The translations under genes and the position numbers were made by a program. A stretch of DNA of 64,000 bases, from positions 1,240,001 through 1,304,000 of the forward strand of contig JAWWNJ010000026.1 of assembly GCA_037176885.1 (NCBI GenBank). The letters are read 5' to 3'. The DNA is from Favolaschia claudopus. Lineage: Eukaryota; Basidiomycota; Agaricomycetes; Agaricales; Mycenaceae. Positions 24,044 through 50,596 of this stretch are shown here, in pieces; position 1 is the first letter of the stretch; every line of letters begins with the position of its first letter. Below the pieces are notes generated by a model. It was given only the letters and a program-made list of their open reading frames with translations. It did not search any database and was not told the DNA's origin.

Positions 24044-24050
24044 AATAGGG
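24044..24050. repeat. 7-bp target-site duplication AATAGGG, left
   Basis: Lies immediately outside the left inverted repeat and is identical to 50590-50596 immediately outside the right one. Confidence 0.88.
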
Positions 24051-24160
24051 TACGGTAGGCGGGATGGTCGAGGTTGGTTTTGAAGTTTTGACATCCGAGT
24101 TCCGAAGAAGTCCGAAGTGTGCCGCGGCTAAGTACGTGATGAAACTGCCAAATCAGGCAG
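24051..24160 (+). repeat. Left terminal inverted repeat (110 bp)
   Basis: Reverse complement of 50480-50589 with a handful of mismatches and a small indel near its inner end. The outer 88 bases match without any difference that I could see. Confidence 0.92.
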
Positions 24161-24638
24161 ATGCCGACTCGGTCGGAATCTAGAAAATTCAAGCACCACT
24201 TTGCCATGGGCATTGTAGTGCCCGTATAGATAGTATGTAGCTCTTTCTTTGAGCCTATAGGACATCTTTTGTTATGTTGAATGGTGGGGGGAAAATTGTC
24301 GGCCGTTGAAGGGAGAAATAAGGTGCATCAATTAATCATTATCATCAATCTCGACCTCAATGCGGATCGTATGCGCTACAATGACGCAAATGGATTTCAA
24401 GCGAGCTAGCTCAAAATGCAGTTGCGTCATACATTGGAAGTATGCTCAGAATATTGTTGGAATATTGACACAATTTTGTTTCCTTGTTGCTGTGTTCCTT
24501 GACTGGGAGCCAGACTGCCGGATCAATCAATCAAGTCTGGTCAGTCAGGAGGTACTAGATGACGCTCTGCTGTTAACTTAAAGAACTTTTGAGTATTGAT
24601 GTCATACCATATAATTCGGTATTACAGGTAACATCTAA

Positions 24639-26203
24639 CTACAGTAGCAAAGGCAGCATGCGGCAAAATATTGTCCACCCATCAGTCAGCTTCAACTTCG
24701 GACTCCCAATCTGTTCATACACTTCTGCTGCCTGTGTATCAAACTCGTCTGACACCCAACGATAGCACTCCTCCCTCGACTTTGGGATATTCTGTCGAAG
24801 CTGATCAATGTATTCTTGCGGTGCCTGCTCACCGAATTTAACAAGTCCGAACCGTTCTGGAAAATCACAAATGTAATTTGGCGAGAACCCAGAAGGAAGG
24901 ACTTTGTCCTTCTGTAACCGAATACGGTGATTATTCCAGTAATCAACAAAATCATCCAGACAGAGCTGAATAATTTTCGGCCACAGCCAATTGAATAGAT
25001 TACTGTAAAATGTTCGTCAGAATTTGATAGTTGAAGAGTTGGGGAAGCATACACATGAACATCATAAGCTGCATTGAAATAATTGAGGGTTCGGCCCAGC
25101 AGTAAAATTTCCTTGATGTCAAGCCCAACATAATTTGTAAAAAGCTTCCAGGATGCTTCAATGGGAATGTTGTCGGTGCTCGGCAATGCCACAAAAGCAG
25201 GATGATCTTCCAAGGAGACATCGGGCATGCATTTTTGGCTAAAATAGCGAGTCAGAACCAGTAGAAAATAAATCAGCATAGCTCTTACCGCAAAGCAAGA
25301 TGCGCTGCATATAGCTCCCCCGTCTCAGACCCTCCATCAACTGTCGCCTGAACAAAAACTTTAAGAACGGTTAAAAACAAATCTAGAATATGCAGTAAGT
25401 GAACACATACGACCATTATCTCCAACCAAGTCAAGATAGTAATGACCGACAGTCGATGAGCATCGAGCATTAGGGACAGTCAAGAATTTGATCATTCTAC
25501 TGCTTGAATGGCAGCGAGAACCGTAGATATCTATACCAACTCGCCCCATGCGCAAGGCTTTGAAGTTCAATTTCTCGTGGCCGTCAAAATGAACTTCATA
25601 GTAGACTCCGGTGTCGGTAAGGTGTCCACGCTGCTTAGGGGTACGGTTACGGCCCGGATATCTAATCTCTGCTCCACCGGGATCCAAGTCGGCCATCAAA
25701 CGGCGAACTGTGTCGCTGCAAAATTATCAGCTTGAAGTACACTGGAGAAGGAACAACCGCCATACCGGGGAATTTTCACACCATGTTCGCGGGCTATCTG
25801 AGTCTGAACCGTTCCGGGACCCTTGCGAGAGGAAGCATTATCAGAAATGACTTCGCCGATGATTGTGGCTGAAATATGTTCCGGCGGTGGTTTCTTGACA
25901 GTGTCGACATTGAATTTGCGATTGAGGCCTTTCAAAGTAGTGAGACTAGTACATGCAAGTGAGCAAAGTGAATACTCGGCATGTCAAGAACTATATACAC
26001 ACCCAATCTTGTAGTTAAAATCCTTGACAAGATAATCCAGTCGCTGAGCAAGACTCAGACTGTTGCGAGAATATCTGTGGAGAGCTGCTTCCAGCACATC
26101 ATCCGGCGGTCCTAATATTTCAACGTTAAGTCGGATTTAAGAATTTGGGAATACCCTCACTTGTGCCGTTGTAGTGACCGTTATTGCCAGCTGTGTTGAC
26201 CAT
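24639..26203 (-). CDS. Integrase-core (DDE) transposase-like protein, 417 aa
   Basis: Seven exons: 26203-26161, 26111-26003, 25945-25766, 25715-25414, 25358-25289, 25238-25053, 25002-24639. All six introns are GT-AG, 49-57 nt, and phases agree throughout. The N-terminal half (LAQRLDYLVKDFNYKIG; GTVQTQIAREHGVKIPRDTV) looks like helix-turn-helix DNA binding. The catalytic core is of the fungal integrase-core type: EVHFDGHEKLN (Asp155), GHYYLDLV, TVDGGSETGE (Asp219) and IPIEASWK (Glu262), a DD43E spacing. The tail DFVDYWNNHRIRLQKDKVLPSGFSPN fits the family. The gene has no lesion. It sits next to the left inverted repeat and is divergent to the alpha-kinase gene, so it is the likely transposase of this element. 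The position of the 55-nt intron 25359-25413 is the least certain. Confidence 0.87.
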
Positions 26204-26892
26204 TTGACGGTGTTCACTGAAGATTGCGGTAGACTTACAAGCTATTTATATTATTGGGCTTGGATGAGTCGAGTCAAGACAGGTTGAACCGTGGGAAATT
26301 CGCTTACATGTATTCTTGCCGCCTGTATCGACACTTGTTCCGAAAATGACTCGAAAATGACTCGGATTGCAGAGCATTCACCGATCCACTGTGCTTTCCG
26401 TGTGTGCATGAAACTGGACTGACTCAGAAATTGTGCAAAATCAGCGAGTTGACTCGTCCAACCCACCTGAATATCCGTGTTTCCGGATATCCGTTTCCGA
26501 AGCGCAGTAGAAAATGAGTCAAGCTGGACTCTCATCTCCGGATTCTAATGTTGCTGATCAATCGTGTTACTTCTTTTGTTCTATCCGTACAAGTTCAACC
26601 GTGGGAGCTACCTGCGGTTATCCTTTTGACCCACCTTCGTGCCCGCTCCAAAATGACTCGAATTGCAGACTCGCAGATTTCGTGCTCACAAAAAATCAGA
26701 CTGACTCAGAATTTGTTTGAACCCATGACTCGAAATGTACCCACCTCAATATCCATCCGAAGCCCAGTTACAACGAGCAGCACGGTTCCGAGTTTTGATT
26801 TGTGAACTCTTTCACCTGTCACTGAGGCTGTACTTATTTATAAACACTGAAAGCACCACCCGAAATTCAGCCACCTACTTCTACTATCTACA
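26204..26892. promoter_or_regulatory. Shared divergent promoter with a cluster of TGACTC boxes
   Basis: This 689-bp spacer between two divergent ATGs holds about nine copies of TGACTC(A/G) on either strand, including one full TGAGTCA palindrome near 26515. TGACTCA is the classic bZIP (Gcn4/AP-1) site. Two diverged halves repeat the order TGACTCG-ATTGCAGA...GACTGACTCAGAA...CCCACCT-AATATCC (26346-26480 and 26652-26760). The motif TT(G/C)AACCGTGGGA occurs at about 26282 and 26593, and again at 49961. This would fit co-regulation of both genes. Confidence 0.55.
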
Positions 26893-29800
26893 ATGGCTCA
26901 AGATGTCGACCCAACTCTTTGCACTAATCTCAACTCTCCCGGTGAATGCTGTGGCGCCTCTTTTGATCACAAGGCAACACCTGGACTCTGTGCAGCATGC
27001 TATGTCGCTACTACGGACTCAGCGCGCGCCTTGGAGAGGAAGGTATTTTTTTTATCTTTAACTTTCCGAGAAATATAATGATCGTACTCTAGGATTGGCC
27101 CCAATGCGAGGGCTGCTCGGCCCAACTGAAGCTTCTCAAAGGGTCTCGTTGTGGTTCATGTATTAGAAAGTTTGCTCGCACCCTTCAAAAAGGATCACAC
27201 AAATCCAGCGGAGGTACTTTGTCTGCGCCGATTGGAAATGCAAAGGGTATGGCTCGGCAGATTACTGTATATCTCGTCCCTGCCACCTCCAATACTAGGA
27301 CTGATGCATCGCGTATGCTCGGAAACGCCACCCGGGCCTTTCCTGAGGATACCCCGATGGAAGGTGAGTTTAATGAGCACTATTCTGCGTTGGATTTGTG
27401 ATTCTTAACACCCCTGGTGCTAGTAATTAGCCTAATGTCTTGAACGTAGACACAGGTAACAGTTTCTATAACCACGACTGTAGCCAATTTTGTCTACATT
27501 CATGGTATCGAGTCTCTTACCCTTGTCTCTGGCCGTCAATTTTAGTCTAGTGGTTCAGGGCCACTTTCAATTGTTTTTTTATTCGGTCCTGTCAATGGTG
27601 GACTCCGTGATGATGCGTTGACCATCATGTTGACGATCAATTTCTGCTCAAAAACTCTTCCAGCTGAGTCCCAAAGTAGAGAAAATTGTCGTATAAAGTA
27701 GTAATCGTAGTAATCAAACGGAACATTTCCTATTCGGAAGAAAATAGCTGATCGGTCCCAGAATCGTCCGTCAACAATTGGCGGGCCACGGTAACCGCCG
27801 GAACATTCCACTTCTCGCGGAAGAACTCGGCTAATCTGTCGTGCCACGCTGCCTGTTTCAAAGCATATGCCTTCAACCCGCCCCGCGTCGCGAAAGTGAG
27901 ATCATCCCTCAGACTCACGTGAGCGCGCCACCACGCTGCTTGCCACGCAAGATACCGTAAAACCCGCCGCATCTCCTCTCGTAATAACATTACCTCCTCG
28001 CACCACCTCGTCTTCCTCGCGAGCGATCGTGACCACTCGACACGGACAGCTGTTTAAGATAGAAGATGGTAGTAGTAAGCAGCGGTATTCAAAAGGTTAA
28101 AGAGGTAGGCACTTACATTCATGCATCATTTCCTCATCTAACGCGCCCGGCGCGGTCCAAATCCAAGACATGACCCGTTTCGAAGTCCCCGGCGCGTTAC
28201 GTGGTGCGCGCGCGCCCCGCCCTGATCCCAACATCGCTAATTTCTTGCGCGCCGCCGAGTCGCTCTCTTCAGCATCCCCATCGAGTTGCACATCCTCAGG
28301 CTTTAGCTCCCGAAGGTGTGGATATGCGTCATTTCCCTTAAGCGCAATCAATGCTACGCGCCCTTGGCGGTAGCGACTGGCGTGGGATTCGACGCGATCA
28401 CCGACTTCCCCAATGAGGGTGCGCGCTCTTGTGCTAGGAACCTGGCCCGTAATATTGGCGTTGCGAAAGCTGATGAGATGCCGCTTGGCGTGAAGGCGCG
28501 CGCGCAGGGAGGCGAGGGAATTTTCGCATTGAGCGACCCTCAACTTCGTCTCCATCTCCGGTAATCCGGGGATACATCCGTGAAGCGGATCAGGCGGGTT
28601 TCGACGTCGCGCCATGTCGCTCGGCATAAAAAGTTTGACTGCTTCTGCGTTGGGGGGCGGGGCATCGGGATCCCTTGACGCTTCATACTCTTCCAATGCT
28701 GCCGCTGCCCCAGGCATGTAGATTCTCTGCAGACCGCGAAATTTGTTGATTTTTACGTGGAGGGCATGACGCCATTCTTGAATTTTGTTCTCACGATCAG
28801 CGGTGATCAGTGCCGTTGATCCTCTGAGTTGCGTGGTTATTCGCCGCCTTGCCAAATCATAAGCGAAAAGAAGGAGCATCGAAATAATTGCATACTGGGC
28901 ATCTTCGATCTGAATACCAGCCACCAAGAATGCTGTTGCACTTTGTCCGTGCAAAGGCGCCGTCCCAGATAGAGCCTGTTCATCTTTACGAACCTCTAAG
29001 CGGACTCGAACTTCGGTTGGGCAATCTATCATCAATTGTCAGTGATTTCCCGGTTCCGGGTCGAGTGACTCACCTCGCCGCGACAGAGTAAAGGGATTGG
29101 GCTTTGTGCCGTCTGCCTCCCATTCCTTGATCCGCGTGCGCCATTCCGTTCTGACTTCTTTTTCAACCGTCTTGCTCACATCCTTGAACGCAGCTACCTG
29201 GCGATCTCGTTCGGCGATTGCGATAACAAGTTTTCGCTGTAACGCGTCCCCTACATTCATTTGAGATCATTTCTCTGCAAGTAAACATCACCGACACACC
29301 TTGCCCGATATTCTTCAAGAAATTATGATTGTCGATTTTACCTTCCATCACATCGGCCCGCATGCCAATACCGGCGTCCTTTGTGGAGAAAGCTGCGGGG
29401 TTCAGAACACCCCAGGTCCGTTCCACGCCTTCCCCATCACTCCTGCCAACTCCGGGCCGGAAGCTGAGGCTGTTTTGATTTTGACAGTCCTCGTTGTGTG
29501 AAGAGGCGTGCCAGACAGGCAAGCCGTATTGAACATTGATGTCTTTCAAGGGCAGTCGCATTGAAGCAGGTAGCTTATCCATACGTTCCTCAATCTTCAA
29601 TTTCCATTGGCAGCCGATATCATAAGAGATTGTTAACCAGAGCAGGCTGAATCCCGCCAGTGCAGCCATCACGATATAATCCATATTAGCGTATCTGATA
29701 GATCACTGTTAGCATGGTAGAAAAGACAAGAGGTACTTCGACATACCTTTCCCCTTTTTGCAAATCCCCAATTCCATTCGGACGCATTGACTCGTGCCGT

Positions 29801-32800
29801 GCACACACACAACCACCCACTCCCGACACGCGTAAACCTGTTGTGTTTCGAGTGTCTTTTTGCAGCAAAGCCGCAAACGCAATACATGTGCTGATCTAAA
29901 TAATATATTTAGCATTTTTCGGAGCCGTTGAAACGCACTGACCTCATCTTCGCCGACATAATTTTTAAGATGTTCCCGATAGCTATTGGGCTCTACCCAA
30001 TATCCCCAACCTGGCCCAAGGGAAGGATCATCAATTTCATGGACGCGAATCCGATTGCGGAGGCGAAAATTCGCATCCACCGCAAGGATCAGCATGTATA
30101 GGAATCTTATCAGACAATCAGTTGCGTCAATCCCAATCAATACTCAGACTCACTGATATTTTGCGTCGACTTCACGCCAGCCATCGGGTAAGTTTCGACC
30201 GTCTTGCGGGCATGCCCAACACCTCACCGCACACTCTCCCAGCGCCGTACTCTCCACTCCACGTGGATCATGCCCTCGTCCCGCTCGTTTGAGTCGCATC
30301 AAGAAGGACCATTGACGCGATACGCGATTAAACTGTTTATAGCGGTCCTGTTTTGGCTTGAGCTTGGCGTTCGGAGAAACTCGGTTCAAGACCTACCGGT
30401 AACCAAGTCATATTGGAGCTTGCGGACGCATCCGTTGCGCGTTCTACCGAGGTTACAAAGTCTCGCACGTTGAAATTCCCCACAACATTATAAAGACGGT
30501 ATGTTTCGAGCGTTCGGAAAGTAGCGCAAGTGCCGGGGTCGGTAACAGTCGCGGGATACCACCCGTTGCGAAGTAGTTGTTCAATATTATCAGCGTCATC
30601 TGACTTAGCACACTTGCAATAGCGAATTTGAATTTGGTGAATTATCGGTTCCTCAATAACGACGAGTTTATGCTGAGCTGGATCGGGCAAGGGACAAGGG
30701 AACCCTCCGTGCCCGAGCTGATAAACGAGACCAAGCTGTGCGAGAGTGCGTGGAATCCAGTAATCACCGTTCCATTGCTTTGAATCTGAGTCAGCAGAAG
30801 TATAATTAAAGCACATAAGCGAGCCCCACTTACCTGGATGACGTGCAAAGGGGTCCGCTTGTGATTCTCTAAACAGCAATCAAGACATTGAAGAAACTGC
30901 CCGCATTCATAGCATTTGAAGAGGGAGACTTGAGCGGAGAATCTGGCGCTGCAGTGTGCGCAACACGGATCAGTTGTATCATCGCCAAGTCCCTCGTGCC
31001 GTAAGAGTTCGGTCAAAAACTCTCCCATGAGCGGACGCCAAAGAGACATTGGGTCTTTCTGTGGGTGTTCAGTCGTATATTGTACGGATAAATACTTGCA
31101 GAGAAAATACCGTGCTCTGATATTCTTTCCTCTTGCCTAGCATGGTTGCTTGAGGGATTGAGTTTTGAGCTTCGTTTTCATCGAAATTGTCATCGGGAAT
31201 AGGGATCCATTGAGCGAGTTGATCGTCAAGTTGGGTGGGTTCAAGGCGTCTCTTTTTGTGAGTTACATTCAAAAGTTCCTCTTCGCGGTGCTGGCCGTCG
31301 AATGAGAGATATATCCCTCGATCACCAGTCAATGTGAAGTTAGCGCCGTCATAGTCATCGTCGACATCCACTAGGTTTTGATTTCGTTCACGCAAAGCAC
31401 GGCGACGCATGTAGAGTAGAAAAAGGCGAGTGTCGGGAGAGATGGGACACAGCGAAGAAAAGGAAGCGGCTTTTCAAGCAATTTTCGAGACCGGATTTTC
31501 ACATCAATTTTCGCCGCATGCATTTAGACGAGCTCCATGCGTACGGTTACCAGAACCAGTGAGGTTAAATTGTAAATCCAGGGGCAAAGCCCATAAAACC
31601 GGGGCGACGCAGTCGCAACACAACATGGAAAGAGGAGATGAAAGAGATTGATATGGCTGTGCAAGCCGGCCAAAGCCGGGAGTGATGTCACACTGTGACA
31701 CTCTTTCTTCCCACCGCCTGGTGCGGTGAAAACAACAACTTTCTACTGTAAATATCTACGGGCTTGCTGGTACCAAGACGCGTGGCTCTTCAGGGAAGAT
31801 CAGACCGCTCCAATCGTAGGTAACTACGCTCTCATCCTTCCAATCGGGATAGTCACACGCCAGTCCCGCCTCCTCCCCGAAATGACGAAAAGGCGCGCGA
31901 AACATCGGTTTGACACAATTCGGGCAAGTCCAACGGCGTTCGAGCCACAGGCGAATGCATACATAGCAGTGACTATGTCCACAAAGGTATCTAGAGGTCT
32001 TTTGTTAACATTCATCGTTCAGAAAGTGTAAGGAATGAAGATACGCACGACACGGGGTGAGATTTCACCTGATGACATATTCCGCACTTGTGGTGGTCGT
32101 ATTTCGCAATCTGCTCGCTAGGTCCCTTTCCATCGACCCATACACCACCGTTTGTTCCGGACCTCCGGAGGACGTTTTGACAGATGCTGTTAGCTGACAT
32201 CTCCGAAACATTCCCTGGAGACCGAAACATCGATTCCCAGACAATCCGTCGGCGATGATGTCCTGGGGACATTCTGCGCTGAAGCTCTCCAGGACATTAG
32301 AGCCAGTTTGCTGACGGCGCTTGCCATAAATAATATTTGAATTGCTTCTTAAATTCGATCAAAATACAAATAAAAAAATGGTATTGCAAGCAACAAAAGT
32401 ATACATTGAGTGGCTACACAAATGATTCTAGGAGGGAGAGGAGAAGAGGAGGGAGAGGAAGTAAATGATAATTTTCCGGAAGATGGAGAGAAAGAGAGGT
32501 GGGGAGAGGGCCGAAGCGTGTTGATGAGAGAGGCTTGGGGAGGACGACGGCAAGGACTTTGATGAAGGTTTGCATGGGTTACACTCTTGAGAAGTTTTCA
32601 GCTTGCGGCCTTGGACTCTTGCGACCGTTGTCTTGCAGTCTCAGCCTTGCACAGTGAGGTTCTTGGATCTTGCGGACTTGCGACTCTTGCCTGAGGTGGA
32701 GAGATCTTCGTGCCACAACGGACTTGAAGAGGCTTGAAGATTGAAGCTTGAAGGGATGTTGAGGAGAGATGACAGTGTCAGAGGCTTCGAGCTTCCTTCT

Positions 32801-35800
32801 GGGGTGTCGTGAAAGACGAGGAGTTTGGAGGGGGGATGAGGGAAGAAGACAAGAGAGTGACGTGGCAGCGGAGACCGTAATGACAAACATCACCATTGAA
32901 TGATGCCACGTCATGATGCGATGTGGGGACTTCATCGTTTTCTCGAGTTCGACGCCAAATCCAGCAGCAAAAGGTTGCGTCCGCTCGAGGAACTTCATGA
33001 ACTTCCTTGGAATACATTGTGCATTCAATACTAAGTCACAAGGAGTTTATTGGGGGATATAGCTACTCCAAATACAGTACTTGTTGAATCAGACGAGCTT
33101 AAGATTCCAGTATATATCTTAAGATTTGAACAACCTTCTAGGATGTCCTTCAACCATCCACAGACTGTCCCAACCACGCTTCTGAGGACATTTCGAAATT
33201 GAGAGCTGTTGGAGCTCGCAAATCATGGTTCCGAGGACATCACACCTCGGACATTATTTTGACATTTGAATAAAATGGTGGTGTAGGTCTGCGTGCACCA
33301 AAGGTAGAGAACGCGTCTCTCGCCATCCAAGCACAGCGATCGCAGCTGGCGTGTCAGCTACCTCGCGGCGTATTACTTGGGCTTCCTCTTGACGCTGAGC
33401 TCGCACCGCTCTCTGGGTTTCGTTCCCCAGCACATTGTTTTGAGTGCTGACTCGATAGAACATAGCTACACGAGAAACTGCGCGCGAAAGTGCGCGCGCT
33501 TGAGGATGTGCGTTAATGATATCCAGGAGATAGGTATTGAAGACCGCACCTCGCACATCCTGGCGGCTAGGCGACGACGCTGGATAAAGATTCGACATTG
33601 AAGGAGGAATATTTTCTTTGCCCCTCAAGATGTTGTTGGGTTTACGGGGAGGAGTAGTCATTGAAGTGAGTATTTGTGGCGGTTTTGCTTTTGAAAGTTG
33701 GGGATCAGGGGTCTTACCCCTTCTTGCTTTGAATTCATCTGGACAGACCCTCGCATTGAATCATTCTGCGCAAAACCATTTTGGGCTGGATGTCTCCCAC
33801 GTCGCACATTTCCATGTGCATTTCCAAGCCGTTTATCCCCCAAAATCTCGCTAATCCTTTCCGAGTTGCTGTATTGTGACGCGTCTCTCTGCAAATTACC
33901 AAAGAGAAAAAACTCGGCTGTGGTTTTTCAAATTTTTTGCGAACGTTGAGACAAGTCTAGACTACTCGTGAGTCCTTGAATCTTTTTATCATCAGTGTTT
34001 GATGCGTCGTATCGGAAACAAGAATCTCTGTGCAGGGTCGGTGCAGCGATCTTGCGAACTTTTACAGCTTGGCCATGCGCACCTCGGCTAAACGCGGGGA
34101 GGGGCGGAACTACCCGAGGATTGTTCTTCACGACGAGCCAAGATGTCGGCGCGTCGTTCCCGGTAAGTCAGCCCGAGATCATCGAAACCCTTGGCTCAAT
34201 CTGTTTTTTTGGAAGAAGCCTTCAAAAAATCCATTTGTCAATAGCACCACGCAAGCGCATACGAGCCCGCTATTCCTTTTTAGTAACCTTCCGAGTCTTC
34301 CTGGTCACATGGAAGCACATGGAGCGGTCTGGATTGCTTCCGCAAATCTTGCGAACTTTTTCTTCTTTTTATTTCCAGGCCTAGTCTACTTCCGTGGGAC
34401 GTTTCACCCTCCCATCAGACATCATCATGACGAAAAGGCACAACAGGTTGAGCGAACCTTTTCATTCTTTGCACGCAGCGGGTTCCCGCCGCCCTTAATG
34501 GGAGGCATCATGCAAGCAATGTAAGTCAAGGTTTCTCGTGCTACATATGAATGAATCTCTTTTCACGCGTTAAGCTGACCATCGTCCTCCCAGAATTCAA
34601 CCCCATTCGGTTTTCAGCTTGCGCATTACGTACCCAAGGAACCGAAAGCTAAACTCGCTCAGGTTTCCTGATTGTGAATTTGTACTGGTTTACCTCGTCT
34701 AATTTGACACGACCACAAGGTCAATTCTCTACGCGGATTTCGGGAGCAACGCGCAACGTCGCACTTGAAATTTTGCCCCGTCGGTATCTTTACTGGGCAG
34801 TCTTTATTCCGGCGCTGACTACAGTCAAATTGCAGGCTACAGTACGTTTCCGGCCACGAAAACCCGGACTTCTTAAAGATCTTTTGATTCTAGTACGATC
34901 CTCCCCCCCAAAAAAATCCCCCGAGCCTCCAACCTTCGCAAAAAAATCGCCGTTATGTCTCAAGCACCTGGTCGCCGTGGCAGTTCTTCTGTCCACTTTG
35001 TCTACGTCCGTCAACCATTGGGCAACCCCATTCGTGCCCGCCATACCTATGCATTCGGCAACCTGCTGCTGACTCGCAGTGCATTCCTCCTCTCGAGCGA
35101 AAAAATCGATCGTGTTTACCGGGGTGAGGTCTGTATACTATTTTTCTCTCTTTGGTTTGTTACATTGTCTGATAGAACTTCTCAGATGCGTCCCGAGGAA
35201 CAGCGCGCCTACATCGACGCTATGTATGACTTCCCACTTGCGGACCAAGACCTGTCCCTGCACCAACAAATGCTTGATGCTTTCCATGGTCCTCTCAGCC
35301 CTATTCCTGCGGATCCCGCTGTCGAACCGACACTCGAGCAACAGATGTACGACCTTTTCGAGGGCCCTCTTACCCCGCTGCCCGATGACTCCGACGCCGA
35401 GGACTCTATTTCTGTCGCTGGCGACACGCCGGCGTCGCCTCCACCGGCAACCCTCTCCAACGTCCTCGATCTTCCCGCCACACCGGCCTACACGCCGGCG
35501 TCGCCTCCACCGGCAATCACCTCATTTCCCCTCTCCAATGTCCGCGATCTTCCTGCCACACCGGCCTTACATGCCGCAGATCAAGGCGACGCGTCGGACT
35601 CGGATGCCGAGATTGATGAACTCGCTTCGTCTGCCTCTGCCGCAGGCGACAACGACAACACTCCAGCCCCGGCTTCTGTTGGCCGGTTCTACACCACAGA
35701 TGGCTACTTTGCCGTCCACCATACCCCTCCTCATTATATCGACCCCAGCTATCTGCTCCCATCTTCTCCCGCAGCCAGCGGGCCCTACACCGCGGACGGC

Positions 35801-41800: not shown

Positions 41801-44800
41801 ACACTTTCATGAGTCATTCGTGATTCAGTGCTGATGCGGGTCGGCGACAAACCTATTCTTCCGCCGCTCTGAGTCAGACGCAGTCCTTTTTGCGGAAGTC
41901 TGCGCCGCGTAGTCGGATGAAACATGAAAAAGTTCCTGGAATCTTACCTGTTTTGGCTGAGAAACAACGGCCCTTCTGCTCTGAGTCAGAAGCAATCTTT
42001 TTGCGAAAGCCTGGACCGCCTAATCGGATGGAACCTGAAAAAGTTCGTGGAATATTACCCGTTTGGGCCGATGAAGGTTGCACGAGAACAATTCTTCGGG
42101 TGTTTTTCACCTCAATGAGGCTTTCCGGGGATACACAACAAGCACGAAACACAATCTGCACTAGCCAAGAGTGTTGAGGAGGGGGGCATCATATGGAAAT
42201 TTTGCAAGAACACTCACGGATGTCGGAAACAAGAATATACAAGAATCAAACACAGATTGATTGAAGCACAGTAAAAACGACTCGATTGAATTCGGATGTA
42301 AGAAGTGAACAGGGTAAGCGACAACCAAAACAAGTCAACAACTACGGGAAATAAAAAAAACAGCTCTTGATCAAATTACGCGGCGGTATTCTTGTTCTAG
42401 CGAAGGGTAGTTAGATATTGTGAGAATCAGACTAATCAGGAACTTTACCCGGCACTCAAGGGACGACAGCAATCCCATGACTCGCAAGGGCATCATTGAA
42501 CGCATGAAGAGCGAGGAGCTGGGTCTTGTAGGACCTCATGCGCCCTCCACGCACGCCGACTGTTGCCGAAAGAGCCGCCCCGTGGCTGAGGGTGACGCCG
42601 ACGAATTTGCCTTGGTAGATGCAGTACCAAACAGAATCGTCACCCGCATGGGGAGGGTCGGGAATGGCCGTGAGCGGCTGCGGGGGGATATTGCCAAAAA
42701 ATCCCCCAACCTCCCACGGTGGAGTGGTGCGGACGAAAGTCGGAGCCGCGACAGCGGGAGCTGCTGGAGCTGCGACAACGGGAGCCGCCGGAGCCGCGAC
42801 AACGGGAGCCGCTGGAACCGATGCAGAGCGGGAAGCAGCAGGGAAGAGTGGAACCGGCGCAGGGAAAAAACCCCTCGGCGCGGGCGCAGGCGCAGGCGCG
42901 GCCTCCGGAGAACGGGAAGGCGCCTCGTTGGTGACCGGCGCGGATGCTTGAGAAGAGATCAGACAAAGCCCCGCCATGCACACGAAAAAAACAAACCTCG
43001 GCGGAACGAAGAAAGGTCGAACGAGGTAACGACGTCCAGAACCCTTTGGAAAGCGTCGACGGTGCGAACTGTTGGAAAGAAATGAGCAGACGATGAGTGG
43101 CAGACGTCGTGATTGCTTACCGTCGACGCCGTCCAGATTAACAGAGGCCATCGTGCGAAGCACGATCTCGAATGCCGCCGCAGTGTCGTTGGCTAATGAT
43201 ATTGAGCAAGGGATATGTAGAAAGTAAAGATCCACATACCCTCTGTGTGTGCAGCCGCTGGAGCAGAGCGCTCTGGTCCAGAGGTTGTGGAGTTGATGAT
43301 GGTCATTGTAGTTGGGAGATGAGAGAGGTGGAGAATGGACGCAACGGGAATCGAGGATTTTATAGTACGTACGGCAAGCGGAGGGTTTGTGAGATCGAGA
43401 TCTGGAATCTAAGATCCAGATTGATGCGAGTCTACGCATGCACATGCGGAGGTCAGGAACTGCTTGGAAACAGGCGGATAAATCGGATAACTTACCATAC
43501 GTGCGAGAAGAAACAAAACAAATTGGCAACCAAACAAACTAATACTCTCAGAGCATCCACAAGCTGCATAGTACCGCACTTAGCAAAGAGTTGGTGAGTC
43601 GTTCATGCCGCCCAATTAACCAACAGCTAACATCGAGTAGTAATGCCCAAGCCTAGAAAGCGTTCCAGAAAGAAAGTCGCGAAAGAAGACCGTAAAAATT
43701 TGCGGTTGTGGGCCGAGGGAGCGCGAGAAACTATCTTGACTCCTCATCTCGACGCATACCAGAAAGCCAAAGATCAAGGACGTCGCCAGGAGCGGAAGAT
43801 TTTGAAGAAAATTTGTCGCGAATTTCACGCGCGGGTCGGATGGCGAGTCAAGGATCATGAAGAGCCTGTCTTGAAAGAGTGGGATCCAGCCGCACCTGAG
43901 GACGAAGAAATGCTGTCTGAGGAGGACGCGGCGGCGAAGGCGACGCGAGTGAATGAGCTCGATGCGGTACGTGACAATGTGACATCACGCTTCCTTTTTC
44001 TCTGCTTCTCATTGTCTGCCAGCGAATCCGCCGTTGGTTCACCTATCGACTCAGAAAGATCCGCAAAACTCAGCGCGTCGGTAAAGATGAAGATCCACGG
44101 AAAGACCCTTACGCCGTCCTCTTAGCCAACTTGTCTGGAGTCACTGCACCACCCAAAGCATTACAGGCCTACCAGCAATTCATGAAGGAATCTTACGAGG
44201 AGAAGATCGCACCGATTGTGGCGGAGCGATGGGAGGCTGAAAAACGGGACAACACTAAGCTAGCAGAGCGCTCGAAAGAACCCAAGGCGGGGTTTCGCGC
44301 TGAGGTCGCTCGTCAAGTTTTTGCAAACCTCTCAAACGACGAGCGGACAGCAGTTTCAGAGCGCGCTAAACAGCAGGGTGCCGAAGCCAAGGCTTCGTAC
44401 CTAGGGGAATTGAAGGCTACTCCATCGCAGAGCCCGGCGGACCGGCAGAGGTGAGCGCATTCGTACCAAATTCCCATTGCTTGCATGGATAACTGAATCA
44501 ACGGAACTTCTTTGTAGATGTATCGATGCGGTGCCGGATTTCATTGGTCCAATCCTACAGGGATTGCATGCTCATACCGGTATGCACGCCACGCTGATTA
44601 TGGGAGGGCCGGTGCCGAAGTATGATGGAGAATTACGGACCTTACAGTGAGTTGCTCACAGTTGCGAGAAATTCAGGCGCTCAAATCCATAATATAGCGT
44701 TTCTTACGGGCGCAATCGTACAGTGCTTGGTCCCCACTGGCCGCAATGGGATAAGGCCCGATTTTCAGAGGTTACAAAATTCATGACGGATTATCTCCGT

Positions 44801-47800
44801 ACCGCTTACAGTAAGTTTTTACTCCAATCCTCATAGACATGTCCTGAGCCTCCATAGCTCCGCAGGAGTGCGCTCAATCAGCTCTCACCGCCCCCGACTT
44901 GAGTGGTGCGACATACACCATTAACGATACTCCAGATGGCGACTCCGACTCGTCGTCGTCGGATGACTCGGACTCGGATTCGTCGGATTCGGATTCCGAC
45001 GACGAGGACGTAGAACTCCAACGTCGCCCAAAGAAGAAGCGTAAAGTTAATGCACCGAAAACGACTGTCACAACGACAGGATCGACAGGTGAGTGATTTC
45101 GGGTATTTTCTGCTCACTCTCTAAATTTGTACATACCCAGCTACTCCTGATGACGGTGCCGCCCCTGATAGCCACGAAGCCTCCGATAACGACGACAACT
45201 CCGATGGTGCGACCACGCCTACCAGGCCGCTCTTCGACGGTCCCTATTTAGGTTATCATATACCCGAGAAAAAGCGACAAGAAAACATTGCACGCAATAA
45301 AGCGCTTCTTGCACAGCTCATGAGCGACGTCGGGCCCGACCTCTCTACGCTCATGGACGAGTTGAAGTCGTCGGGACCGTCTTCACAGAAACCCCGGGCC
45401 GGTAAATCGAAGTCTACCCGTCCCCGTGCTGCGCCTCCCGCTCGCACACGCCAATCTTCTCGTCTAGCAAATGGCAGCACCACCGTGGACTCCGACAACC
45501 TCCCTCCGCCGGCATCAACGTCCCTTTCCCCACCGTCAGCCCCTCCGCCAGCATCCCCTCCCTTGGCGTCAGCGTCTCCCCCGCCGTCAGCATCCCCTCC
45601 CCCGCCGGCGTCAACGTCCCTTTCCCCACCGTCAGCCCCTCCGCCAGCATCCCCTCCCTTGGCGTCAGCGTCTCCCCCGCCGTCAGCGTCTCCCCCGCCG
45701 TCAGCATCCCCTCCCCCGGCTGCAGCGTCGCCCCCTTCGTTGTTGCCTCCTCCGGCGGTCCCGCATGATGACTCGCCGGCGGTACCGACGACTGACTCAG
45801 TCGTTGCGGAACCGACGAGTCTCCCTGGCGACCCAATCATACCAGCCGGAGGACCTGACTCGACAGCTCCAACTTTCCCCCCACTTTCTCAAGCAGCACA
45901 TGCGGCGATCGCGAACGTGCCCCCACCATCCCGTACTACGCGTTCGACAGCGATCCGACCTGCTTACCCGCCAAACGCACCGCCCTGGTTCAAAGACAGC
46001 CACGCCGCTATGACCAAGATCGACCTCGGCTGCCATTTCCAGGCATTGTTGGCAGTTTGGACGCGAATAGAAGCCGCCTCGCGCTTTGAACACAGCTCAT
46101 CAAATCTGTCAGCCAAATCTCGACCGAAACTAGTCGGCTCGTGGATCTCTTCTAATCGTCGCACTGAGCCGGTGGTAGAGAACCCCGCTGAGTATGCTGC
46201 GCAGTGGCAGCAGTGGTGGGACATACTTCAACCATCGTGGAGGGGAAAGGACGCGCGAGGGTTGTGGGTTGTCTCCGATAGCTACGGAGGCGGAGGTCAG
46301 GAGTGGGGTCCACTGTACCGGTGGGGAGTCAACGGTGTGTTAAGTATTGTGGCGTCGCTTTATTTCTGGGGTTGTGCGGTGCGATTTCAGCCCGAGAATT
46401 TGCGTGTCTGGGAAACTGCAGTTCATGATGTGATGTGGATGTTGGAGGGAATGGCAGTATACTACGAGATGTTTAAGGGAAAATTCTGATGCCTTGCGTA
46501 CTCGTACTCGACGTGAAATACTTAGTTAAAATTTTTGTGGTGTTAAAAAATTGCGAACTTAGAAAAATTTAGCGGGGTGGACATGGATCATGTGTTTTGG
46601 CTTCTTACTACGGAATCGCGAGTTGAAGTCAGTGATACTGTTACCACTCATAATTTTTATTCATACACTCCAGCAACACAATTATTGAAGAATGGTTCTT
46701 AAGGTAGTCAAAAGGATATTCTTAAAATTTTCCTGCACCAAAGTTGTGAGACGGTCGTTATTATCGAACACTACCCAGCATGAAAATTATCAAGGAGTAA
46801 ACAAGTCTTGTTGACGGGGCAAGGCGGAAAGTGATTAAGGCCACGGCGGGCGCCCTGCATCGCACCAAGCTGCATCAATCCGTCACATACGCCGCCCTTG
46901 TCTTGTTGCAGCGTCTAAAAGCGCGCTTCCCCACAGCGCGCGGCTCCTCGGGCCATCGTCTTTTCATTTCCGCTTTCATGATCGCTTCCAAGGTCATCTG
47001 CGACGACACCTACTCGAATAAATCGTGGAGCATCGTTGCGCAGGGAATGTTCACATTGCGAGAAATCAACCAGATAGAGCGTAAGATGTGCAACTACCTG
47101 GATTAGGAGCTCACTGTCGACACTGACGGCGGTTATGTAATGAAGTAGCGGTGGAAGAGGGCGGGTAACCGACCAAGCGGCGGAACGACGAGGGACGATG
47201 GTCGGGTGGTGAAGGGTGGGAAAAGGCTGGAAAGCCCCGAACAAGCGGCGGAACGACGAGGGACGATGGTCGGGTGGTGAAGGGTGGGAAAAGGCTGGAA
47301 AGCCCCGAACAAGCGGCGGAACGACGAGGGACGATGGTCGGGTGGTGAAGGGTGGGAAAAGGCTGGAAAGCCCCGAACAAGCGGCGGAACGACGAGGGAC
47401 GATGGTCGGGTGGTGAAGGGTGGGAAAAGGCTGGAAAGCCCCAAACAAGCGGTGGTCGCTGATTCGCGGGAAGAAGGCGGGAAGCGGAATCACGAGGGTG
47501 GTCGGGTGCTGATAATGTGGAAAGGGCCGAACAAGCGGAATGACGAGGAACATTTGTCGGGTGGTGAAGGGTGGGAAAAGGCTGGAAAGCCCCAAACAAG
47601 CGGCGGTCGCTGATTCGCGGGAAGAAGGTGCGGGCGGGAAGAGGGCGGGAAGCGCCGGATAACCGAATGATGAGGATTCATCGTCGGGTATTAATGGGTG
47701 GGAAGAGGGCGGGAAGCGCCGAAGAGATCTGAGGCACCATCAGAGACGAGCGAAAAGCGAAAAAAGTAAGCCATCAGTAAGTGCGAAAAAGTATCCCATC

Positions 47801-49716
47801 AACAAGTGCGAAAAAAATGCCCGCGCAATTTTTCTGGGCGAACAATTACCAGTGTTTTGGGCCCTTGAATCAGATGGCAAGCCAGATCAAAGCTGTAACA
47901 GAGCATATATGCACAGTGTTGCCCATAGCCAGTCTATTGGCCAGGTACGTGGCTTTTGAAACTGCAACCAATGTCTACGTCCGTGTTTTTTAGTTTATAT
48001 ATTAGTACTAGGGCTCTTCTTAATTCGTTTATTTGATAGATGTCATGACGCACCTTCTTCGCCATTGGAATTTGGATTGGGAAAAGGATTCTGCAGAAAG
48101 TCTCACACCGTGCGCATTTTCATCTTTATCTTTCAGTCAAGACTTCAAGTATTAACGAGTTGTAATTACAGGGAACACATATCTCTCCGTCTCTTTGGCA
48201 ATGTTGGAATTCAACCGCACAGCACTGCCGGGTCTTTGGGCAATTTCTTCAGCATTCATGATCGTATCTATGGCAATAATCCAAAGAAGATGCTTCAAGG
48301 ACCTCCGACCCTCAAACTACCTTCTCCTGCCATTTACCTGGAGGGGTTGATCTTGGTCAAAGAGGTGAGCCGTTGATTATTGGTCTTGCGCCTGAATTGT
48401 AATTCATTTACTTAGTATGAGGATCAAACCGGTGCCGAAGCCCCGTACTTTGTGCACACAGAAAAGGAAATCAGGAAGCGTAAACTAAGTGCAACCACTG
48501 GAAATGTCACAAGTGTTGTTAAGCGTACTCGAAGTAAGTCGCATTTCGCCGAACGAATGTAAAAGTATTAATAATGACTTACTATTGGTAGGCCAACTCC
48601 CGAGCCGCGTGTTTACACCCCTGCGCTCAGAAATTGGTGATCTTCCTGGCTTTTCAAAGGTCCTTTTCCTTTTTGCTACTGTCTCAGTGGCGAGGGATGG
48701 TGCAGTTAGCATTATCTGGCCGGATTCTACCGCCACTCCAGTGGCTTGTACTCTACAAGATACACCTCTAGGTCAAGGAAAGACGAAAAAGGTGTTCAAG
48801 GTGCGCTTTCAATTCAATTTTGATTCGATTTTACTCATCGAAGGTGTAGGCCATTTACGACAGGATGCCCTGGGTCGCCAAACGCTTCTTCGACATTGGT
48901 ACTGGGGAGGAACAAGTCGAAATTCACGAAAACTCAAAGTTCCTCATTCAAGAAATCACTCGCTTGGCAAAATCCGGGTATTATTTAGAACATTTCGTTG
49001 CTGAAGCGAAGCAGAGGGGAGTTAGTATAGACGAAAGTGAGCACTACCTTTTCTAATTATATGCTAACTCAGACTGATTTTCTTCAGCAATCTCCGTTAC
49101 TGATTTCAAACTTGGAATTGAGGTGGTACAAGACGGTGCCTCGCCTTCTCTTGCATCAGGAGTTTCACTCGATCGGTACCAAGATGCGAACACCAACTCC
49201 AACTCCAAATTGCTCTGGCTCTTTGAGCCTCGTCGATCCGCTCGTGTTGACCACTGGAGTGGAACCAATGACTATCCAGCTTGGCATCACAAGAAACTCG
49301 GCAGCACTTTGAACGCATTTACTCACTATGTATATCACCTCACCCAGGAATCCATAGTTCTTGCCGACCTTCAAAGTATGTTTGATTCTCTCCTCCATGT
49401 TGAGATTTATCCTAATAAATGTATCCCTTGTAGCTTCAACAGCTGTCAACGAACATGGAGACGGACTCAATGTCTTATTCGACATGATGACTCACACAAG
49501 CAATGGGTGCGTACTACTTGAGCACTCTTTTTCTGCAATGCCCTCAGAATTTACAGTGCCAGCGGGGTCGGTGATCATGGCCAGGAAGGCATCGATACCT
49601 TTGTTCAGAGCCACGAGTGCGTTGACCGGTGTGATGGATGTGGGCTCAGTAAGGAAGGATTTACAAAGGCTTTGAAGGAGTCGGGTGAATCTGACGAAGA
49701 AGAAGAAGATCAGTAG
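26893..49716 (+). CDS. Alpha-kinase (MHCK/EF2K type) with N-terminal zinc region, 570 aa; intron 2 holds the KDZ element
   Basis: Ten exons: 26893-27042, 27093-27363, 48040-48109, 48172-48364, 48416-48533, 48592-48800, 48850-49036, 49088-49375, 49434-49506, 49563-49716. All phases fit and there are no stops. Residues 1-75 carry Cys pairs (GECCG, GLCAACY, QCEGC, RCGSC), probably zinc-binding. The kinase domain has VAKRFF (Lys348, ATP binding), IVLADLQ, LFDMMTHT and GVGDHGQEGIDTF, then a Cys cluster SHECVDRCDGCG and an acidic tail, as in basidiomycete alpha-kinases. Exons 2 and 3 lie 20.7 kb apart. They join in phase as PMED-VMTHLLRHWN, and the intron minus the KDZ element is 61 nt. The protein would phosphorylate Ser/Thr; its substrate is unknown. 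Splicing of so long an intron is doubtful. Confidence 0.87.
27402..27408. repeat. 7-bp target-site duplication TTCTTAA, left of KDZ element
   Basis: Repeated at 48017-48023. Removing the interval plus one copy leaves a 61-nt GT-AG intron in the alpha-kinase gene. Confidence 0.72.
27730..31410 (-). CDS. KDZ transposase with CxC2 cysteine cluster, 1070 aa
   Basis: Ten exons: 31410-31111, 31058-30834, 30777-30397, 30347-30154, 30105-29943, 29895-29747, 29694-29300, 29250-29074, 29025-28117, 28049-27730. All introns are GT-AG with matching phases, and no internal stop. The N-terminus has an acidic basic-rich leader. A CxC2-type cysteine cluster follows (CCAHCSARF, CYECGQFLQCLDCCLENH, CKCAKSDD). 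The KDZ core shows GVGGCVCARHES-RPNGIGDLQKGER (about residue 450), YDIGCQWK, HASSHNEDCQ, GVGRSDGEGVERTWGVLNP and KIDNHNFLKNIG. The C-terminal part is helical with an IPG-P-H-G motif. This is the full set expected of an active Kyakuja-Dileera-Zisupton transposase. It lies at the left end of the 20.6-kb element. Confidence 0.94.
31756..32272 (-). CDS. Small RING-finger protein, 152 aa
   Basis: Two exons, 32272-32049 and 31990-31756, separated by a 58-nt GT-AG intron that falls inside the RING. The spliced domain reads CGIC-HQVKSHPVSYL-CGHSHCYVC-IRLWLERRW-TCPNC, the C3HC4 spacing of a RING-HC finger, so it may be an E3 ubiquitin ligase or a zinc-binding adaptor. The C-terminal part (APFRHFGEEAGLACDYPDW, VVTYDWSGL) is well preserved to the stop. 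The start codon is uncertain; the first 25 codons are low in family-like character, and an ATG at about 32197 is an alternative. It is the first cargo gene beside the KDZ transposase, transcribed in the same direction. Confidence 0.82.
32273..33253. other. Spacer between RING gene and the 135-aa gene, no supported gene
   Basis: Contains a 149-codon minus ORF (32579-33028) without recognisable domains or a convincing gene structure. AGGACAT/ATGTCC-like words recur around 32250-32300 and 33140-33250. Confidence 0.5.
33254..33661 (-). CDS. Conserved-looking 135-aa protein of unknown function
   Basis: A single exon as read, beginning MTTPPRKPNN. A helical core (VFNTYLLDIINAHPQARALSR, VSRVAMFYRVS) and a charged segment (QRAVRAQRQEEAQVIRREVA) precede DTPAAIAVLGWRETRSL. 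The sequence looks like a genuine protein, and I recall similar small proteins in agaric genomes, but I cannot name a domain. An upstream minus ORF (33894-33658; MQRDASQYSNSERISEILGD...) also looks coding and may be a 5' exon; I found no in-phase intron joining the two. Confidence 0.6.
   Translation of the reverse strand: MTTPPRKPNNILRGKENIPPSMSNLYPASSPSRQDVRGAVFNTYLLDIINAHPQARALSRAVSRVAMFYRVSTQNNVLGNETQRAVRAQRQEEAQVIRREVADTPAAIAVLGWRETRSLPLVHADLHHHFIQMSK
34955..38109 (+). CDS. 977-aa protein: long disordered acidic region, C-terminal TET/JBP-like fold without catalytic residues
   Basis: Five exons: 34955-35128, 35186-37149, 37205-37403, 37458-37554, 37610-38109, with phases consistent. The first 60 residues are basic and hydrophobic. 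About 600 residues of Asp/Ser/Pro-rich low complexity follow, with repeated DAE-ELMSSP blocks. Next come a basic stretch (RRSRRSLKGSSSKKP), which may be a nuclear signal, and a 320-residue C-terminal domain. The final exon resembles the double-stranded beta-helix of the fungal TET/JBP dioxygenases carried by KDZ elements: spacing around TTCELRYGDTPTF, GHTVLAASG and RRFLFRQY-AGVLRW. The iron-binding HxD and distal His seem replaced (FDDFND; KRIN). If right it would be an inactive, DNA-binding relative. The start and first intron (57 nt) are less certain than the rest. Confidence 0.75.
38849..39607 (-). CDS. Small basic/helical protein with acidic tail, 179 aa
   Basis: Five exons: 39607-39492, 39421-39367, 39314-39229, 39189-39130, 39071-38849, all GT-AG with compatible phases. 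The spliced protein is Arg/Lys/Glu-rich (LNRHLARNEKARIRMARYRAE, RERQYQAEYRARTAHARNRE, YLQRQQIRRKNARLRRL), likely a long helix or coiled coil. It ends in an acidic tail (LDEDEEDEEDDGPDASDVDDD). A charge-segregated protein like this could bind nucleic acid or chromatin, but no domain is recognised. It belongs to the KDZ cargo block and is transcribed with the next two minus-strand genes. Confidence 0.72.
40524..41450 (-). CDS. Tandem RNase H1 N-terminal (viroplasmin-like) domain protein, 258 aa
   Basis: Four exons: 41450-41227, 41176-41036, 40987-40718, 40665-40524, with phases consistent. After a disordered N-terminus and a Lys-rich linker (VRKIKVAKPKKKQYK) there are two copies of the RNase H1 N-terminal/Caulimovirus VI fold: YAVFAGRECGVYESWLIAKPLV-G-SNSIFRGYATLAEAQ and WFVVYRGILPGVYRSHLECQLNTSGIS followed by RENALKKFAEAV. 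This fold binds dsRNA and RNA/DNA hybrids in RNase H1. No RNase H catalytic domain follows. The last intron could end at either of two AGs 12 nt apart. It is part of the KDZ cargo. Confidence 0.83.
42456..43306 (-). CDS. RNase H1 N-terminal (viroplasmin-like) domain protein with Pro/Ala linker, 233 aa
   Basis: Four exons: 43306-43240, 43192-43121, 43068-42997, 42946-42456, GT-AG introns of 47-53 nt, frames matching. A short helical N-terminal part (FEIVLRTMASVNLDGV, VDAFQRVLDVVTSF) is followed by a Pro/Ala-rich linker with repeats (APVVAAPAAPVVAAPAAP). The C-terminal domain is VWYCIYQGKFVGVTLSHGAA-LSATVGVRGGRMRSYKTQLLALHAFNDAL, a single viroplasmin-like domain, which would bind RNA or RNA/DNA hybrid. 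No nuclease part is present. Two such genes side by side in the same element is unusual. Confidence 0.83.
43643..46489 (+). CDS. 857-aa protein with helical N-terminus, acidic block, SV40-like NLS and Pro-rich region; function unknown
   Basis: Six exons: 43643-43966, 44023-44450, 44518-44646, 44698-44810, 44858-45088, 45141-46489, all phases consistent. The N-terminus is strongly basic (MPKPRKRSRKKVAKED) and predicted helical (LRLWAEGARETILTPHLDAYQ, FHARVGWRVKDHEEP). A middle part with RCIDAVPDFIGPIL, TLIMGGPVPKYDGELRTLHVSYGRN leads to a run of Asp/Ser (about 358-385) and the nuclear signal PKKKRKV. A Pro/Ser/Ala region follows (about residues 520-600), and a folded C-terminus with conserved Trp (AQWQQWWDILQPSWRGKD, GLWVVSDSYGGGGQEWGPLYRWG, WMLEGMAVYYEMF). 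I recall multicopy relatives in agarics without assigned function. The architecture suggests a nuclear protein. Confidence 0.8.
45510..45730. repeat. Tandem duplication in the Pro-rich coding region
   Basis: A unit of about 96 bp starting near 45510 (CCGGCATCAACGTCCC) recurs at about 45605, followed by partial CCGTCAGCGTCTCCCCCG copies. It encodes SPP/ASP repeats. Confidence 0.75.
46831..47130 (+). pseudogene. Cyclin (PHO80/Pcl type) N-terminal domain fragment with nonsense mutation
   Basis: The frame encodes LHQSVTYAALVLLQRLKARF, then SGHRLFISAFMIASKVICDD, YSNKSW, and FTLREINQIERKMCNYLD, a good cyclin-box match of the fungal Pcl/Pho80 type. The conserved Trp after YLD is a TAG; the same frame then goes on as ELTVD. 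Sequence upstream of the fragment does not extend the gene. So this is a captured, dead cyclin piece near the right end of the KDZ element. Confidence in the family is high; in the exact limits, lower. Confidence 0.78.
47170..47710. repeat. 68-bp tandem repeat array, about 4 good copies plus degenerate ones
   Basis: The word AAGCGGCGGAACGACG recurs at 47175, 47243, 47311 and 47379, exactly 68 bp apart, followed by related but diverged units to about 47710 (GGGTGGGAAAAGGCTGGAAAG). The array lies 0.3-0.8 kb inside the right border of the KDZ element. Long ORFs on both strands here are a by-product of the repeat. Confidence 0.93.
47711..48016. other. Right subterminal region of the KDZ element
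   Basis: No gene. It contains a short direct duplication (AGTAAGTGCGAAAAAGTATCCC / CAACAAGTGCGAAAAAAATGCC) near 47775-47820. The end, in reverse complement, resembles the left end of the element. Confidence 0.55.
48017..48023. repeat. 7-bp target-site duplication TTCTTAA, right of KDZ element
   Basis: Matches 27402-27408 exactly; followed 16 bases later by the TAG acceptor of the alpha-kinase intron. Confidence 0.72.
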
Positions 49717-50479
49717 TATTATTTACTTACTATTTGAAATCCCTCGGAGCGTAGACCAGACTGCAATCGCTTATATTGTCTTGTTCTTCCTGATTTGATT
49801 CTTTCGGAGCAGAAACTAAGACAATTGCATTGTGGATTTCATTAAATTGATCTTGATTCTCTGCCCAAGACTAGAGTAGAGGTATTATAGTCATGTTACT
49901 TGTCCAGAATCTCCCTTTTGCATCTTTACGCTCCGAAATTGTACTGGTCGTTGACAAGTTGAACCGTGGGAATGCCTATTGATCGCATCAATGCAGCTCG
50001 AAAAAATTCAACCTCGACGATTTCTAGGTAGGCAGAGATACAGAATCAATAAATCTAGTCACTATTGAATATTAGTAGCTCAAATTAGCTCTATATCAGC
50101 TCATTTTAACTTTGTACGGCGCGGAAACCGAACATTTTGGGGGCAGATCTAATGTTTTTTCTTAGGCACCTAATAGTAGATGAATAGAGGCCTAGAGCTC
50201 AGGCAGTAATTTTTCCTCGATCATCAGTAGTACATAGATTACTGTGTTGGATTTCCGGACCATGTTTGTGCATAGAATTGAGGCGTAATAACCCCAACTT
50301 TGAGACGGCCGCATTACACAGCCACAGACAACATTTCACAATGTCCTCTGTTTCGCACGGGGGTTGCCTCAGAATACTCTATAATTTCTTTTCCGTTAAA
50401 ATAAGCTTCCTTAGCTTTCACCTGTACCTCAACTAGGCATGGGAACGTGCGATAGCCTGAGGATAGACTCAACACTATC
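49717..50479. other. Non-coding right arm of the TIR element
   Basis: From the alpha-kinase stop to the right inverted repeat. It has no ORF of note. The promoter word GTTGAACCGTGGGAA recurs at about 49961. Confidence 0.6.
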
Positions 50480-50589
50480 TTCCTAATTTGGCAGTTAGCA
50501 TCACGTACTTAGCCGCGGCACACTTCGGACTTCTTCGGAACTCGGATGTCAAAACTTCAAAACCAACCTCGACCATCCCGCCTACCGTA
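50480..50589 (-). repeat. Right terminal inverted repeat (110 bp)
   Basis: Reverse complement of 24051-24160; the outer end CCTACCGTA abuts the 7-bp duplication AATAGGG at 50590-50596. Confidence 0.92.
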
Positions 50590-50596
50590 AATAGGG
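50590..50596. repeat. 7-bp target-site duplication AATAGGG, right
   Basis: Exact match to 24044-24050. Confidence 0.88.

Follow-up and report, generated by a model that had tools for sequence, protein, structure and literature searches.

The 64,000-nucleotide stretch of Favolaschia claudopus DNA analysed here (the window) raises the question of whether an integrase-core gene and an alpha-kinase gene, lying divergently between inverted repeats, move as one unit, and what the kinase would contribute if they do. A DNA transposon with terminal inverted repeats (TIRs), a target site duplication (TSD) and these two genes spans window positions 24051-50589. Its left TIR (24051-24161, + strand) is about 111 bp long with the terminus TACGGTAGGCGGGATGG, and its right TIR lies at 50477-50589 (- strand). 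The segments 24051-24141 and 50499-50589 show perfect (100%) complementarity along their 91 nt, and an alignment of the right TIR with the left one extends to 112 nt with 96% identity. The heptamer AATAGGG lies flush outside both TIRs (24044-24050 and 50590-50596). The inverted repeats of about 110 bp with 7-bp flanks described in the first-pass annotation are thus confirmed. AATAGGG occurs nine times in the window against 4.4 expected, so that a 7-mer alone is weak evidence; the duplication is convincing because other copies show exact duplications of other sequences.

The element measures 26.5 kb with a nested insertion and 5.9 kb without it, a size that had been proposed from the window and that matches the uninterrupted copies L009, L010, L036 and L039 (5.8-6.4 kb). 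The insertion is foreign to the element proper. It occupies 20,608 bp (27409-48016) in a kinase intron and is flanked by duplications of TTCTTAA at 27402-27408 and 48017-48023. KDZ transposase and CxC2 exons (PF18758, PF18803) lie inside it at 29163-30879 on the - strand, together with other open reading frames (ORFs). The two ends of the insertion (CACCCC..GGGCTC) form no more than an imperfect inverted pair, and tandem 68-bp repeats at 47101-47659 lie close to the right one. Elsewhere in the window, two identical direct-repeat pairs (7085-7321/11624-11860 and 14414-14785/20028-20400) are spaced 4.5 and 5.6 kb apart, an LTR-retrotransposon size. An inverted pair of segments (52741-53369 and 62232-62877), 71-93% alike and about 9-10 kb apart, probably represents diverged duplicate genes.

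The transposase gene (24639-26203, - strand) is modelled as an uninterrupted reading frame of 418 aa in seven exons (26203-26161, 26111-26003, 25945-25766, 25715-25411, 25358-25289, 25238-25053 and 25002-24639). It encodes an integrase-core DDE protein with catalytic residues D155, D220 and E263. Counted in the usual way, the 42 residues between the second D and the E make the triad DD42E, where the first annotation had DD43E. The database homologue P0001 of the same species scores 30.1 bits with PF24764 (rva_4), above the curated cut-off of 26, and a shorter 412-aa window model with six residues less scores 25.5 bits; the same profile matches 44 of 49 aligned integrase homologues at E 0.1 or better. 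The Pfam entry, as far as its name goes, mentions neither a transposon nor a kinase partner. The predicted structure (pLDDT 88) has TnsB, MuA, IstA and retroviral integrases as its nearest solved folds, and a search of solved structures by sequence with the integrase profile gave a single match at chance level. Cysteine is absent from residues 1-110 of the model, which therefore has no HHCC motif.

The alpha-kinase gene lies on the + strand. Its 5' exons (26893-27362), which encode a cysteine-rich N-terminal region, were modelled from the uninterrupted copy L014, and its remaining exons (48039-49716) contain the PF02816 catalytic domain; the kinase matches this profile with 86.6 bits, well above the cut-off of 21.3. 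The catalytic residues K391, E495, D542, D561 and H565 (P0123 numbering) are invariant across 22 homologues. Both genes had been called intact, which is accurate for the open integrase frame and for the kinase exons, all free of stops, but the kinase is split by the intronic insertion and lacks 172-182 bp (near 27166-27171) that L014 and L009 have. In its N-terminus (26893-27150), CxxC pairs are kept even in the Trametes and Daedaleopsis homologues, and the region weakly resembles the L37 ribosomal protein in its zinc ribbon (E about 0.5). One further database protein, P0152 (C116), joins a 99% identical kinase piece (24% of the query) to PF27041 'Transposase' and is either a chimeric gene model or a fusion.

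Related ends are abundant in the genome. A 120-base left-TIR query finds 45 matches, and the exact 17-bp terminus occurs 125 times (58 forward, 67 reverse) compared with none for the reversed control. Twenty regions, and five more around divergent kinase matches, were read; besides the window, at least ten loci contain both genes, and they fall into three subfamilies. Both genes lie between matching ends in L009, L010, L013+L014, L036, L039, L040 and the rearranged L011, while C70 and C113 show DNA-level matches to kinase and integrase within paired ends, and L026 has both genes with its right end not found. The genes are arranged head to head in the window, L009, L010, L013+L014, L036, L039 and L040. 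Subfamily 1 comprises the window copy, L009, L010, L011 and L014; subfamily 2 comprises L036 and L026; and subfamily 3 comprises L039 and L040, which C70 and C113 join at 99% identity in one integrase exon. Protein identity between subfamilies is 66-72% for the kinase and 80-83% for the integrase, and the 17-bp terminus is nonetheless identical. In L026, positions 1001-1735 at the kinase-side end are 92.5% identical to the window and the body 67-70%, as if the copy had recombined between subfamilies. Short, non-autonomous derivatives of 0.5-0.8 kb with exact 7-bp TSDs also occur (C38:461333-461843, C52:1031328-1032166, C119:288757-289587 and C48:762311-763122). A 6.5-kb end pair (C48:763147-769601, TSD ACCGGCA), in which DNA searches matched neither kinase nor integrase, perhaps belongs to a more divergent subfamily.

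Exact TSDs of 7-8 bp bracket nine of the 11 two-gene loci whose ends were inspected (the window, L009, L010, L013+L014, L036, L039, L040, C70 and C113); L011 and L026 have none. Among 23 end pairings tried, exploratory short-copy ones included, 15 have exact TSDs (13 of 7 bp, two of 8 bp and none of 6 bp) and eight have no TSD. Flanks joined with one TSD copy were used as queries for four of eight elements prepared, and uninterrupted sites exist elsewhere for all four insertions (window, L009, L010 and L036). For the window they are at C29 (92% over 1-300) and C268 (93% over 17-300), for L009 at C23 (94%) and for L010 at C125 (85%), and each may be an allele or a paralogue. L036 lies inside a high-copy repeat, and its query has 40 scored matches, the best 100% identical over 300/300 bases. 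Recurrent paired ends with the same gene pair and their own TSDs, and empty sites, were among the signs of mobility to which the first-pass annotation had pointed, the empty sites being proposed there for sister strains, and both are present in this genome. These elements constitute a real, recently mobile transposon family.

Two explanations that would deny the movement of the whole unit can be set aside. A short MITE-like element inserted twice around ordinary genes would suit the many short pairs that share these ends and have TSDs (for example 511 bp in C38 and 839 bp in C52), but it is scarcely credible and is rejected for the two-gene copies, because at nine places a single TSD encloses the complete two-gene unit, which is absent in its entirety from the uninterrupted sites. 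Segmental duplication of one locus, to which the outer flanks common to L020/L021/L022, L019/L023 and L027/L028 would point, has a negligible probability and is likewise rejected for the nine two-gene copies that have TSDs, which differ from one another in flanks and in TSDs.

Selection bears on whether the kinase is a passenger. When preserved copies are compared pairwise, the pN/pS ratio of the kinase falls within 0.07-0.28 and that of the integrase within 0.06-0.16. The close pair L014-L009 gives 0.075 (0.03-0.13) for the kinase and 0.069 (0.03-0.12) for the integrase. L014 compared with L036 gives 0.23 (0.19-0.27) and 0.16 (0.13-0.20), respectively, such between-subfamily values being rough since synonymous sites are saturated. 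Relaxed kinase ratios appear only in comparisons with the degraded copies L040 and L037 (0.56 for L039-L040 and 0.44 for L036-L037). The kinase of L040 is without exons 4 and 5, and stops interrupt it in L026, L011 and L038. Both kinase and integrase show purifying selection.

The two genes are also associated in position. Genome matches to the kinase (29, merged into 27 loci by DNA searches that miss divergent copies) were scored for a neighbouring integrase, a count that had been suggested at the outset. An integrase match lies inside the same element or nearby at 18 of the 27 loci, among them the window with its nested insert, C27 (a fragment only) and C187 (not head to head); it lies only about 13 kb off at two, and a DNA search found none at the other seven. 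Among 42 kinase homologues in the protein database, 17 lie on a contig equal in length to that of a same-species integrase homologue from the 120 of 211 listed, which is taken as a shared contig. Chance would give 2.05 such cases if the genomes measure 60 Mb, and still fewer if they are larger; adjacency itself was seen directly only in Favolaschia. Two of the 17 cases, C56 and C61, are elements verified in the genome. Integrase and kinase distances are uncorrelated over 15 of the 17 pairs (Spearman 0.15; 1113 of 5000 permutations as high), and because many of the database gene models are partial, this comparison across species neither supports nor excludes co-evolution. No rust protein appears among the 120 of 211 integrase homologues listed. 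A kinase-profile search that scored 7995 candidates gave 53 proteins; no rust is named among their sources, a result that does not bear on absence.

The first-pass annotation offered passenger or accessory regulator as the role of the kinase. If the kinase were a captured host gene and neutral, one could expect the seven kinase loci at which no integrase match was found, as well as short derivatives such as L015 that are without both genes and have TSDs. We regard this as improbable, and less likely than a conserved component, since three subfamilies whose kinase proteins are about 66-72% alike have the same head-to-head order, every well-preserved pair compared shows purifying selection with kinase ratios close to those of the transposase, and the same pairing occurs in IS3EU transposons of other fungi (in the available text of PMC12730594).

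Those IS3EU transposons also decide how far the system is new. No described DNA transposon had been thought to encode an alpha-kinase, but the TET+ IS3EU transposons already do (Kojima 2025, PMC12730594). According to the available text of that paper, their transposase and alpha-kinase genes are oppositely oriented, a TET/JBP gene with a presumed role against methylation lies between the two, and the hosts of the families with both accessory genes are rusts and, in one family, Tuber. In the rust IS3EU families the TSDs measure 6 bp, the TIRs exceed 30 bp and the ends take the form TAYGG..CCRTA. The Favolaschia element has matching termini, TACGGTAGG..CCTACCGTA (TACGG..CCGTA) in the window and in all listed two-ended copies. 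Its kinase is likewise opposite to its transposase, and its TIRs also exceed 30 bp but are longer, at 67-112 bp. It differs in its TSDs (7 bp in 13/15 and 8 bp in 2/15 instead of 6 bp), in its host, a member of the Agaricales, and in being without TET: the 689-bp gap between the genes (26204-26892) contains no ATG-started ORF over 94 aa. The likeness is one of description rather than of compared proteins.

Two other reports allow further comparison. The available text on IS3EU/GingerRoot (PMC10045372) gives TA..TA termini, an integrase-like DDE core and no HHCC motif, all shared with the Favolaschia element, but the IS3EU TSDs are usually 6 bp there and no kinase is named. Styx of Zymoseptoria (PMC10853768) is, as here, a fungal element with extra genes, and its authors relate its transposase to IS3EU; it has a 6-bp TSD, and the extra genes described in the available text have GATA, CCHC and DUF3577 domains and no kinase. 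Since the element does not have the 6-bp TSD, we call it IS3EU-like, not a plain member. It is an IS3EU-like variant with the kinase as a standing second gene. The word 'usually' may leave room for a 7-bp IS3EU lineage, and hAT lineages with 5-, 6- and 7-bp TSDs have been described by the same author (Kojima), as far as the available text goes. Within the open-access literature, to which our search was confined (subscription journals and Repbase lie outside it), PMC12730594 is the only paper, in its available text, that ties an alpha-kinase to a DNA transposon. The gene pair is therefore not new in kind, and the differences are TSD length, no TET, TIR length and host. The single mobile unit of the first-pass annotation, with the integrase as mover, holds up with the kinase as its second gene, and the claim of an undescribed system does not.

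The reading that we consider probable is that of a cut-and-paste IS3EU-like transposon with a 7-bp stagger and a kinase that belongs to it permanently as a second protein and most likely controls movement by phosphorylating the transposase or host factors. Judging from its predicted fold, the N-terminal helical (HTH-like) region of the transposase may bind the TIRs, and the D155/D220/E263 active site could then cut and join DNA. The alpha-kinase would be a lasting protein of the transposon lineage and not chance cargo, with the transposase or host factors of repair, chromatin or the cell cycle as its most likely substrates, and phosphorylation would set the timing or efficiency of movement. 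The window copy is a family member that was later swollen by the KDZ-bearing insertion. For regulation of transposition as the specific role of the kinase, the chances seem about even.

Alpha-kinases are signalling enzymes, which also suits a kinase that acts mainly on the host and stays out of the transposition reaction itself. It might weaken silencing, time movement to a stage of the cell cycle or help the element pass between dikaryon nuclei. The strong constraint on the kinase fits this equally well, and the company, in IS3EU families, of a TET/JBP gene presumed to act against methylation (available text of PMC12730594) points the same way. We rate this possibility below the preferred reading of a kinase that controls movement, and consider it somewhat unlikely. 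Similarly tentative is the proposal that the kinase belongs to the core proteins of transposition and has stayed together with the transposase from a time before the mushroom/rust split, with the 7-bp-TSD elements as a separate lineage. If the core-protein proposal is true, much of the unexplained spread of alpha-kinases in basidiomycetes would consist of transposon genes, and the zinc-ribbon-like N-terminus together with a possible ubiquitin-like domain would define a new kind of transposon-encoded signalling protein.

The insertion sites and selection tests show that a mushroom DNA transposon has an alpha-kinase among its maintained genes, which links to a one-sentence observation in other fungi. 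Alpha-kinase expansions have been reported in rusts (available text of PMC4469406). If the association is general, it would explain alpha-kinase expansions as transposon genes, and a transposon equipped with a kinase of its own would become a case open to testing.
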